Shown piece by piece: positions 8,652 to 40,545 of a stretch of DNA of 64,000 nucleotides (its first letter is position 1; every line of letters begins with the position of its first letter). The translations under genes were made by a program, and so were the position numbers. Below the pieces are notes generated by a model. It searched no databases. It saw only the letters and a program-made list of their open reading frames with translations, and had not been told where the DNA came from. The stretch covers positions 1 through 64,000 of the forward strand of contig CAJFSX010000002.1 of the NCBI GenBank assembly GCA_904419775.1, written 5' to 3'. The stretch is from Candidatus Pararuminococcus gallinarum. GTDB taxonomy: Bacteria; Bacillota; Clostridia; Oscillospirales; Ruminococcaceae.

Positions 8652-8695
8652 ATCACAAAAGGGGCAGGCGGAAAACCGCCTGCCCCTTTTGTGAT
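8652..8695. terminator. Bidirectional terminator between DUF89 and GH32 genes
   Basis: Perfect 20-bp arms (8652-8671 and 8676-8695) around AAAA; the arms carry A/T runs so the hairpin can end both the plus-strand DUF89 transcript and the minus-strand... only the former directly faces it, while the GH32 transcript reaches it from 8746. Confidence 0.85.
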
Positions 8696-27342: not shown

Positions 27343-27416
27343 CAAAGGAAGATCCATTGACATGGTCAAAAACGAAACCTATAATGAAGACAAAAAATAG
27401 GGAATGAGGTGCCGGC

Positions 27417-34101: not shown

Positions 34102-34242
34102 ATGAAACGGCGCTGGATACTGCCCGCCACCCTCCTTGCTTTAGGCGGCGTATTGATGGCAGTAGGAATTTATCGCGGGGAGATGGCCACAGTCTTTCAA
34201 AAGGCCGCCAACCTGTGTCTGGAGTGTATCGGCATTGGCTAA
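34102..34242 (+). CDS. CD1871A family CXXC membrane peptide
   Basis: A 46-residue protein starting at ATG 34102 immediately after the TlpA-like stop. It has one transmembrane helix ([20 protein letters not shown]) and a C-terminal [12 protein letters not shown] with a Cys-x-x-Cys. This is the layout of the CD1871A family, which recurs beside TlpA-like and 4Fe-4S membrane genes in Clostridia. The dithiol faces either side depending on insertion; with the positive N-terminus (MKRRW) inside, the CxxC would be outside, near the lipoprotein. Its last codons overlap the TTG start of the next gene. Confidence 0.85.
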
Positions 34243-35140
34243 ACAAAAGAGAAGAAACCTCCGTCCCTGGGTGCAGGGGATCTGGACGGTGGTGACCAAC
34301 AGCTATCTGGTGGGATTTTGGCAGGGAAAACTCTACCGCGGCCCCATCAAAAACCTCTGTGTCCCCGGGCTCAACTGCTATTCCTGCCCCGGAGCGGTGG
34401 GCTCCTGCCCTATCGGCGCCCTACAGGCGGTGATAGGTAGCCGGGACTATCATTTTGCCTTTTATGTGGTGGGATTTCTCATGGCGGTAGGCGCCATCTG
34501 CGGCCGGTTTGTCTGCGGCTGGCTCTGTCCCTTTGGCTGGATCCAGGAGCTGATTCACAAAATCCCCTTCCCCAAGAAGATCCGCTCCTTCCGATGGGAT
34601 AAGCCCCTCCGGTTTCTCAAATATGGGATTCTGGTAGTTTTCGTGATCCTGCTGCCCCTGTTTCTGGTGGACTTCATCGGCCAGGGAGAGCCCTTTTTCT
34701 GCAAGCTGATCTGCCCCGCCGGCACCCTGGAAGGCGGCATCCCCATGGTGCTGCTCAACGAGCCGCTGCGGGCGACCATTGGCTGGCTCTATACCTGGAA
34801 GATGGCCATTTTGGCGGTTTTGATCTTTTTATCCATTTTAACCTACCGGCCCTTCTGCAAATATCTTTGTCCCTTGGGGGCTGTCTATGGGCTGGCAAAT
34901 CCCGTCTCATTCTATAAGCTTCGGGTAGATGAGGAAAAATGCATCCACTGCGGAAAATGCGCCAAGGTCTGTCCTATGCAGGTGGACCCGGTCAAATCCC
35001 CTAACGCTTTGGAATGCATCCGCTGCGGGGAATGTAAAAAGGCCTGTCCCACCGGCGCCATTTCTATGGGATTTGGCGCCCGGGTCTCCGCCAAAAAGAT
35101 GATTGGCATCGATCTGCCAGAGATGGAGAAAAAGTCTTGA
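34235..35140 (+). CDS. Membrane 4Fe-4S polyferredoxin (NapH/YccM-like)
   Basis: A 301-residue membrane iron-sulfur protein. The start is TTG 34235, inside the end of the previous gene, so translation is coupled. It has about five hydrophobic spans and six Cys groups: [49 protein letters not shown], then two ferredoxin motifs [17 protein letters not shown] and [16 protein letters not shown]. It is likely to pass electrons from a cytosolic donor across the membrane to the CxxC peptide and TlpA-like lipoprotein. The -35 of the next promoter overlaps its stop codon. Confidence 0.92.
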
Positions 35141-35189
35141 CATGTGGGCATATGCACATTATAATGAGAGAGTAATGTGCATATGCCCA
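35137..35189 (+). promoter_or_regulatory. Promoter with 17-bp perfect inverted-repeat operator (DUF134 operon)
   Basis: TTGACA (35137-35142), 17-nt spacer, TATAAT (35160-35165). Arms TGGGCATATGCACATTA (35145-35161) and its exact complement (35173-35189) flank an 11-nt centre, so one arm fills the spacer and the other covers the start region. Each arm contains GCATATGC. Likely target of the DUF134 protein encoded 34 nt on. Confidence 0.85.
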
Positions 35190-35222: not shown

Positions 35223-35582
35223 ATGCCCAGAAATGTCAAATGCAGGAGGGTCTGCGCCGAACCCCAGGCGGCATGCTTTGTACCGGAAAACGGGGGAGGG
35301 GAGGAGATCCGGCTCAGCGTAGACGAGCTGGAATCCCTGCGGCTGTGCGATCTGGAGGGAATGGACCAGGATATGGCCGCCGAGCGGATGAATGTCTCCC
35401 GCGGCACCTTTCAGCGCATTCTCTATGCGGCGCGGCGGCAGGTGGCTGACGCCCTTTGCCACGGCAAGATCCTGCGCATCGGCGGCGGCAACTACCAGGT
35501 GGCCCAGTCCCGTTGCCAATGCCCCGGAATGTGCGCCAAATGCAGATTTTCTGAAGACGATGAAACCAAAAAGGAGATGTAA
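35223..35582 (+). CDS. DUF134 family helix-turn-helix regulator
   Basis: A 119-residue DUF134 protein. ATG at 35223 follows AAAGGAAG. It starts MPRNVKCRRVCAEP, has RLSVDELESLRLCDLEGMDQ leading into a sigma-70 region 4-like helix-turn-helix (QDMAAERMNVSRGTFQRILYA), and ends with a cysteine cluster RCQCPGMCAKCRF that could hold an Fe-S cluster or metal. DUF134 genes often neighbour Mrp and NifX-like genes, as here. The operator directly upstream makes a redox- or iron-responsive autoregulator the simplest reading (inference). Confidence 0.9.
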   Translation: MPRNVKCRRVCAEPQAACFVPENGGGEEIRLSVDELESLRLCDLEGMDQDMAAERMNVSRGTFQRILYAARRQVADALCHGKILRIGGGNYQVAQSRCQCPGMCAKCRFSEDDETKKEM

Positions 35583-35588
35583 AATCCC

Positions 35589-36431
35589 ATGAGCGAATGT
35601 AATCACGATTGCGGAAGCTGTTCCCAGACCTGTGCGGAGCGGCAGAATCCCGCCGATTTTAAAGAAAGCCTCAACGAGATGAGCAGCGTCAAAAAGGTCA
35701 TCGGCGTTGTCAGCGGCAAGGGTGGCGTAGGCAAAAGCATTGTCACCGCTATGCTGGCTGTTCTCTTAAAGCGCCGGGGCTACAACACCGCTGTATTGGA
35801 TGCCGACATCACCGGTCCCTCCATCCCCAAGGTCTTCGGCATCAAGGAGCGGGCCCAGGCCAGTGAATTCGGCCTTCTGCCGGCCAAGAGCAAATTCGGC
35901 ACCGACATTATGAGTGTCAACATGCTGTTGGAAAACGAGGAAGATCCTGTTGTCTGGCGCGGCCCGATTATCGCCGGCACAGTCAAGCAGTTCTGGACCG
36001 ATGTGATCTGGTCGGATGTGGACTTTATGTTTGTGGATATGCCTCCGGGCACCGGCGATGTGCCATTGACCGTGTTTCAGTCCCTGCCGCTGGATGGCAT
36101 TATCGTGGTCACCTCTCCCCAGGAGCTGGTCAGCATGATCGTGGCCAAAGCTGTCAACATGGCAAAGCTGATGGATATCCCCATCCTGGGTGTGGTAGAA
36201 AATATGAGCTATGTAGAATGTCCTGACTGCGGCAAGAAGATCCTGGTCTTTGGGGAAAGCCATGTGGAAGAAGCAGCCAAGAAATATAATCTTCAGGTCT
36301 TGGGCAAAATCCCCATGACCCCGGATTTGGCCCGGGTCTGCGACCAGGGTGTCATCGAGCTGTTTGAAGGCGATTGGCTGGATCACGCAGCTGACGTCAT
36401 CGAAAATATAGAGGGAGATGCGAAGAAATGA
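35589..36431 (+). CDS. mrp: Mrp/NBP35-type Fe-S carrier ATPase
   Basis: A 280-residue P-loop ATPase of the Mrp/ApbC/Nbp35 family that binds and transfers 4Fe-4S clusters. ATG at 35589 lies 6 nt after the DUF134 stop. An N-terminal cysteine string MSECNHDCGSCSQTC resembles the eukaryotic Nbp35 ferredoxin-like extension; then Walker A GVVSGKGGVGKSIVTAML, VDMPPGTGDVPLT (Walker B region) and the bridging-cluster CPDCGKK. Stop and the next start share ATGA, so it is co-translated with the NifX-like gene. A scaffold/carrier role in cluster delivery, perhaps to the polyferredoxin, is inferred. Confidence 0.95.
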   Translation: MSECNHDCGSCSQTCAERQNPADFKESLNEMSSVKKVIGVVSGKGGVGKSIVTAMLAVLLKRRGYNTAVLDADITGPSIPKVFGIKERAQASEFGLLPAKSKFGTDIMSVNMLLENEEDPVVWRGPIIAGTVKQFWTDVIWSDVDFMFVDMPPGTGDVPLTVFQSLPLDGIIVVTSPQELVSMIVAKAVNMAKLMDIPILGVVENMSYVECPDCGKKILVFGESHVEEAAKKYNLQVLGKIPMTPDLARVCDQGVIELFEGDWLDHAADVIENIEGDAKK

Positions 36432-36844
36432 AAATCGCGGTAACCACTGAAAATGGCCAGGTCTTCCAGCATTTTGGCAAGACCAAAACCTTTACCCTGT
36501 ACACGGTGGAAAACGGTGCAGTACAGGAGAAAACCCTGCTGGACGGCGGCGATGAAGGACACAGCGCCCTGGTTGGCGTCCTCAAAAACGCAGGGGTAGA
36601 GCTTCTCATCTGCGGCGGCATTGGGCCGGGAGCCCAAAACGCCCTGGCAGCGGCTGGCATCACCTGTGTGGCCGGCGCTTCTGGAGATGTGGACGCTGCG
36701 GTGGCAGCCTATCTTGCCGGAACCCTGCAAATCGATCCGGCGGCGGCTCACTGTAACCACCACGGCCACGGGGAAGGCCATACTTGTGGCGATCATCACG
36801 GCCATGAGGGCGGTCACAGCTGCGGAGCCCACACCTGCAAATAA
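36428..36844 (+). CDS. NifX/NifB-type dinitrogenase iron-molybdenum cofactor family protein with His/Cys tail
   Basis: A 138-residue protein, residues 1-105 being the NifX/NafY domain (KIAVTTENGQVFQHFGKTKT start, ICGGIGPGAQNALAAAGI core) that binds metal-sulfur cofactors. No nitrogenase is present, so it is one of the orphan Clostridia/Desulfovibrio type members. Residues 108-138 are an unusual tail with ten His and four Cys in 31 residues (for example CNHHGHGEGHTC), suggesting metal storage or delivery. It overlaps mrp by 4 nt and ends the operon before a terminator. Confidence 0.92.
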   Translation: MKIAVTTENGQVFQHFGKTKTFTLYTVENGAVQEKTLLDGGDEGHSALVGVLKNAGVELLICGGIGPGAQNALAAAGITCVAGASGDVDAAVAAYLAGTLQIDPAAAHCNHHGHGEGHTCGDHHGHEGGHSCGAHTCK

Positions 36845-39575: not shown

Positions 39576-39986
39576 ATGAAATATTCCCGTCAGAGGGAGT
39601 TGATACTCGAAGCTGTCAGAGAGGACGATGTCCATCCCACAGCGGACTTTATCTATCAAAGGCTTAAAAAAGATCATCCAAACCTGAGCCTAGGGACAGT
39701 ATACCGCAATTTAAACCTGCTCAGTGAGATCGGTACCATCAATAAGCTTCATGTGCCAGGGATGCCTGACCGTTTTGACGGCAACATCACTCCCCATTAT
39801 CACTTTTATTGTAAGCACTGCGGCAGGGTCTTTGACGTCAGTATAGATTTTCCACAGGAAATCGATCGGGAGGTAGAGAGGAAAACCGGCCATCAGGTGG
39901 ATTCCCACAGCATCCTCTTCAGCGGCATCTGTAAAGGCTGCGCCCAGAAAACACCAGATCAAGACGGCAATAGTGCCGTTAGATAA
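39576..39986 (+). CDS. perR: Fur family regulator, PerR type
   Basis: A 136-residue Fur-family repressor, ATG at 39576 after GAGAGGAG. Winged helix: EDDVHPTADFIYQRLKKDHP and LSLGTVYRNLNLLSEIG. The metal/peroxide site includes the His of HPTAD, RFDGNITPHYHFYC with an Asp after Phe as in PerR, and zinc cysteines CKHC and CKGC. It precedes a rubrerythrin gene by 22 nt, the standard peroxide-defence pairing in anaerobes. AT palindromes at its promoter suggest autorepression. Confidence 0.9.
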   Translation: MKYSRQRELILEAVREDDVHPTADFIYQRLKKDHPNLSLGTVYRNLNLLSEIGTINKLHVPGMPDRFDGNITPHYHFYCKHCGRVFDVSIDFPQEIDREVERKTGHQVDSHSILFSGICKGCAQKTPDQDGNSAVR

Positions 39987-40008
39987 ATTTTGACAGAAAG
40001 AAGGAACG

Positions 40009-40545
40009 ATGATGAACTTAAAAGGATCAAAAACCGAAGCCAACCTGATGACTGCTTTTGCAGGGGAATCCCAGGCAAGAAACAAATACACCTATTTTGC
40101 AAGCAAAGCAAGAAAAGACGGCTTTGTACAGATCGCGAACCTGTTTGAAGAAACCGCCAACAACGAAAAAGAGCATGCAAAAATTTGGTTTAAACTGCTG
40201 GATGGCATCGGTTCCACCGCAGAAAACCTGAAGGCTGCCGCAGCTGGCGAGAACTATGAGTGGACCGATATGTACGCTACCTTTGCCAAAGAGGCCAAAG
40301 AAGAGGGATTCGATCAGATCGCGTTCCTTTTTGAGTCTGTTGGCAAGATCGAGAAGCATCACGAGGAGCGGTATCTGGATCTGCTCAAAAACGTCGAGGA
40401 GAACAAAGTCTTTAAGAAAGACGGCAAGGTCTATTGGAAGTGCGGTAACTGCGGCCATATCCATGAAGGCACCGAGGCCCCTGGCGTATGTCCGGTCTGC
40501 AACCATCCCCAGGCTTATTTTGAACTGGTCAACAAAAACTATTAA
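40009..40545 (+). CDS. rbr: Rubrerythrin
   Basis: A 178-residue rubrerythrin that reduces hydrogen peroxide with electrons from rubredoxin or NADH oxidoreductase. ATG at 40009 follows AAGGAACG; a second ATG follows directly. Diiron helices: [52 protein letters not shown] and [10 protein letters not shown]. The C-terminal rubredoxin-like site is [10 protein letters not shown] ... [11 protein letters not shown]. Co-transcribed with perR; a terminator follows. Confidence 0.97.

Follow-up and report, generated by a model that had tools for sequence, protein, structure and literature searches.

What purpose does a long inverted repeat serve when it is embedded in a full-consensus promoter, and which protein, if any, reads it? 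The question is raised by a short operon in the window (the whole 64-kb stretch of DNA that was analysed), in which a gene for a DUF134 protein is followed by an mrp-type and a nifX-type gene. The promoter of this operon matches the sigma-70 consensus at 12 of 12 positions with a 17-nt spacer, and the window contains only one other 12/12 TTGACA-TATAAT promoter, at 27357. A polyferredoxin ORF lies upstream (34235-35140), and its TGA stop codon (35138-35140) falls within the -35 hexamer. The initial annotation had reported the promoter, its overlap with this stop codon, and a dyad with one arm in the spacer and the other over the start point; all three hold when the positions are examined. The dyad arms, TGGGCATATGCACATTA and TAATGTGCATATGCCCA, are 100% complementary across an 11-nt gap, so that the perfect 17-bp dyad described earlier is exact to the base. 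Its reading is nevertheless refined here, since each arm contains its own near-palindromic box, TGnGCATATGCnCA, and the most natural view is of two sites, one for each of two dimers, rather than of one 17-bp dyad. The two boxes face each other with their centres 31 bp apart. When the window was shuffled 40 times with dinucleotides kept, no shuffle contained a short-looped perfect inverted repeat of at least 14 bp. The window itself contains three further perfect inverted repeats of at least 17 bp (at 8652, 40577 and 57652), so the length of the dyad alone is not special; its position in the promoter and its conservation set it apart. The features are collected in Table 1.

Table 1. Features of the DUF134 operon and its promoter in the window. 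Start codons of the genes were assigned by script.
Feature	Position	Strand	Remark
-35 hexamer TTGACA	35137..35142	+	overlaps the TGA stop of the polyferredoxin gene
-10 hexamer TATAAT	35160..35165	+	17-nt spacer from the -35
Operator box 1, TGGGCATATGCACA (predicted)	35145-35158	+	in the -35/-10 spacer; outer half TGGGCAT, inner half TGTGCAT
Operator box 2, TGTGCATATGCCCA (predicted)	35176-35189	+	covers the expected transcription start; inverted relative to box 1
Whole 17 + 11 + 17 dyad	35145..35189	.	arms 35145-35161 and 35173-35189
DUF134 (UPF0251) protein, 119 aa, candidate autorepressor	35223..35582	+	sigma-region-4-like HTH
Mrp/NBP35-type P-loop ATPase (Fe-S carrier family; Mrp/NUBPL)	35589..36431	+	closest in NCBIfam to the N-terminal part of MrpORP
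NifX/orange-protein-type (Nitro_FeMo-Co) protein	36428..36844	+	relative of the MrpORP C-terminal part

The first gene product scores 78.4 bits against the DUF134 profile PF02001 (cut-off 27) over residues 3-93. Apart from a weak Sigma70_r4_2 match, no other Pfam domain is found. The products of the other two genes match the NCBIfam MrpORP model at 338 and 78 bits, each over one half. Neither is therefore a single-protein MrpORP, for which the whole-protein cut-off is 450, but their domains are those of MrpORP. At its C-terminal end the NifX-type protein has a His/Cys-rich tail (HCNHHGHGEGHTCGDHHGHEGGHSCGAHTCK) that is common among its relatives and suggests metal binding. Close to the operon, a gene for a Fur-family regulator is followed by one for rubrerythrin (39576-40545), likely a peroxide/iron stress pair.

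The AlphaFold model of the DUF134 protein (pLDDT 85) has the fold of sigma region 4 at residues about 30-80, as matched by Foldseek and VIA-align. Region 4 of SigR (5fgm) can be superimposed on the model with an rmsd of 0.7 over 47 columns (Z 6.8). As the structural matches to sigma region 4 reach a Z of about 6-7, below 8, the kinship rests on fold together with the sequence match and not on Z alone. Sigma region 2, responsible for core binding and -10 melting, was not found in the 119-aa protein, which shows the DUF134 and region-4 matches only. A search by sequence for a relative of solved structure returned one chance-level match only. The recognition helix, SRGTFQRILY (residues 59-68), begins with an Arg that hardly varies (R60 of the window protein). 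In an ungapped alignment, we take R60 to correspond to R584 of sigma-70 and G61 to E585. Four cysteines (11, 98, 104 and 107) vary little or not at all in the class of the window protein, which is termed class G after the R-G-T of its helix. A Cys near residue 11 is present in 48 of 49 class-G proteins, and the C-terminal Cys number two to six, mostly three to five. These residues are conserved candidate ligands of the kind expected in a metal or redox regulator, and sensing of metal, redox state or an Fe-S cluster by the Cys cluster is plausible from the sequence. In many genomes with class-T (R-T-T) proteins, DUF134 is fused to a NifX domain.

To examine how far the boxes are conserved, 169 distinct DUF134 genes were gathered from named genomes and from the family, order and phylum to which the window belongs. 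The palindrome recurs ahead of DUF134 genes in about a hundred related genomes, and CATATG occurs within 180 nt upstream of 112 of the 169 genes; 100 dinucleotide-keeping shuffles of the upstream regions gave 11 such genes on average and never more than 19. Other 6-mer palindromes are far rarer there except TTATAA, which -10 elements can supply. The initial annotation had made its proposal depend on a dyad shared by other DUF134 genes, and such conservation, rather than its absence, is what we find. DUF134 genes that have no box often lie in operons with boxes at the head (L039, L124, L148 and L196); in L039, mrp and nifX precede DUF134. Two full class-G boxes are present at 17 promoters. The pair is inverted in 12 of these and consistent with a direct arrangement in one; the inner halves are mostly TGTGCAT and the outer halves TG[GA]GCAT. 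The centre of box 1 lies 15 nt past the start of the -35 in most class-G promoters with two boxes. The placement of the boxes, in the spacer and over the start of the regulator's own promoter, is the same in relatives. The operator is, as judged by this comparison, real, conserved and embedded in the promoter. The centre-to-centre spacing of class-G boxes ranges from 20 to 38 bp; a fixed helical phasing between boxes was rejected for this variation, which also makes a fixed contact between dimers doubtful.

Class-G boxes are also found at single loci in Synergistaceae (L077), Treponema (L106) and Victivallales (L107, with a changed centre). In other families, a CATATG box cannot be recognised at many of the R-P-T-F DUF134 genes. 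Five loci with a class-T or related helix (L013, L042, L058, L112 and L149) lack a clear box; CGGTATATACCGG in L042 and CGACATATACCGG in L112, both near the start, may be diverged boxes.

The sequence of the box follows that of the recognition helix. R-G-T proteins are accompanied by TGnGCAT (119 G-type half-sites against 1 T-type) and R-T-T proteins by TGRCAT (95 T-type against 2 G-type, leaving out the halves that are the -35 itself). R-P-T proteins are accompanied by TGAACAT (14 P-type half-sites against 1 and 1 of the other types). The protein tree has two main clades, with Gly proteins in one and Thr proteins in the other; Pro proteins with TGAACAT-type boxes are present in both. The box of R-A-T proteins follows their own clade, which indicates that the residue next to the Arg marks the class without being its sole cause. 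The difference between Gly-type and Thr-type boxes goes back mainly to a single deep division of the tree, so that the co-variation represents few independent events, and independent-pair sign tests fall short of significance for want of independent switches. Stronger evidence comes from genomes with two paralogues, where each gene has the box that fits its own class, as in L064 and L137 of genome G252 and in L094 (Angelakisella massiliensis) and L147 of genome G163, an arrangement into which a shared outside regulator would not readily fit. In clade II (class T) the half-site TTGACAT includes the -35 hexamer, so that box 1 contains the -35. Conservation and co-variation with the helix, both expected of an autorepressor's operator, are thus both observed, and comparison gives good support to the view that operator and recognition helix changed together, with at least three operator classes.

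Two further arrangements were observed. At three class-G promoters (L094, L096 and L102) a T-type half at the -35 (TTGACATATG) runs directly into the class-G box, possibly an intermediate between the two operator classes. In L180, a promoter of the form TTGACATATGCTCA...TATAAT...TGAGCATATGCTCA is located about 900 nt after the start of an R-A-T-F DUF134 gene.

These comparisons bear on whether the dyad acts mainly as RNA, as a terminator or processing stem for read-through from the polyferredoxin gene, its overlap with the promoter being incidental. The transcribed dyad has a predicted folding energy of -32.9 kcal/mol (z -5.65), and in the window a UUUUU run comes after it. With the -35 overlapping the polyferredoxin stop codon, there is no room for a terminator ahead of the promoter. 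A T-run after box 2, however, is found in only 6 of the 17 two-box promoters, the window included, which does not suit a terminator; many relatives have a single box and form no long stem. Moreover, the box sequence tracks the helix class of DUF134, and box 1 of class T includes the -35 itself. We therefore regard a main role as RNA hairpin as unlikely, while a secondary one as terminator, in a double use of the dyad, is possible in the window genome.

In the reading that we prefer, DUF134 acts as a dimer and as a local autorepressor of its operon, which encodes a split MrpORP; we consider this, with the circuit set out below, very probable. The autoregulation proposed by the initial annotation, repression by the DUF134 protein, gains good support from comparison: the box is conserved, lies over the promoter and co-varies with the helix. 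We infer direct binding with one dimer per box, repression and a signal. A DUF134 dimer would bind one near-palindromic box, with the recognition helix reading the half-site, and the bound protein would block sigma-70 RNA polymerase; the position of the boxes in the spacer and over the start implies repression. One ligand state of DUF134 would repress, and a change in metal or Fe-S status would free the promoter and yield more carrier. The sensor may be the DUF134 Cys cluster or, in relatives, the fused NifX domain. Since the products form a split MrpORP, the circuit probably adjusts the supply of Fe-S or metal-cluster carrier.

The same protein could instead bind the boxes as an activator or dual switch, the bound form distorting the spacer as MerR-family proteins do. 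MerR-type activators use the position between -35 and -10, where box 1 is located. However, a promoter with an optimal 17-nt spacer and a 12/12 consensus needs no help, a further box at the start point is what repressors typically have, and class-T boxes cover the -35; an activator or dual switch is thus quite unlikely.

The reach of the autorepressor was assessed with exact-box patterns. In the window genome, exact copies of the strict box occur at this promoter or in coding sequence (PEP carboxykinase, purH and others). Searches of ten genomes with the class-G pattern and of fifteen with the class-T pattern recovered the DUF134 promoters; the only other non-coding exact box in these genomes is at L210, and the rest lie inside genes. 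L210 (genome G014, site at 1501) combines a class-T box and a consensus-like promoter. The gene behind it is a nifX-type gene standing alone, on a separate contig from the DUF134 gene of that genome (L013), whose promoter has no box. As far as the sequence indicates, L210 is a probable trans target of DUF134. The outcome of the exact-box search suggests that the target is the DUF134-mrp-nifX set, wherever nifX lies, and we propose that the regulon is local, essentially the protein's own operon or a nifX gene elsewhere. Several HTH families bind short palindromes of this size, but binding by a different cellular regulator, with DUF134 merely one of its targets, is very unlikely, given that, beyond the DUF134 promoters, only the promoter of one nifX gene has an exact box in the searched genomes, and that the type of box goes with the individual DUF134 paralogue inside a single genome and with the DUF134 clade when genomes are compared.

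Whether the local autorepressor represents its whole family is a more general proposal, for and against which we see the chances as even. DUF134 proteins would repress MrpORP/NifX operons as free-standing proteins of the sigma-region-4 type. The -35 itself (TTGACATATGTCAA) would serve as operator half-site in one clade, whereas the window's clade would use the code TGnGCAT with the box in the spacer; the residue equivalent to E585 of sigma-70 (G, T or P) would mark the operator class. Repressor and sigma factor, with related DNA-binding domains, would then compete for the same promoter letters in one clade. If true, the reading of a -35 half-site offers a natural test case of a sigma-like HTH turned repressor, with protein and site changing together. 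Of 199 genomes drawn from the phylum of the window, 135 have DUF134 above cut-off, and it is also matched in archaeal control genomes. The proposed circuit gives this domain of uncharacterised function a testable function, operator and regulon, and a link to Fe-S or metal-cluster carriers (MrpORP); the operators and target genes are newly proposed here.

The window gene is a clear member of DUF134/UPF0251/COG1342 (PF02001), a family annotated as of unknown function. We found no description of it as a regulator with a known site in the open-licence literature, and a UPF0251 gene is merely listed among secondary mutations in one report (PMC5886521). MrpORP and the orp operons of Desulfovibrio vulgaris are a further relative: the window has both halves of the NCBIfam MrpORP, but split over its mrp and nifX genes. 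MrpORP is reported to take part in Fe-S biogenesis in Desulfovibrio, in which its operons use a sigma-54-dependent promoter (PMC6345978); no description of the control of MrpORP carriers outside this sigma-54 system was found in the open-licence literature. The fold is like that of sigma region 4, as in SigR (5fgm) and in SigW domain 4 with -35 DNA (6jhe), and the clade II half-site contains the -35. In contrast to sigma factors, DUF134 has neither region 2 nor a polymerase-binding part, and its sites are palindromic; the window half-site TGnGCAT is not -35-like. Classical dimeric autorepressors resemble the proposed system in their palindromic sites over the -35/-10 and the start and in having the regulator as first gene. 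The DUF134 system differs from them in its protein family, in its two inward-facing asymmetric boxes and in a regulon that is nearly a single operon.
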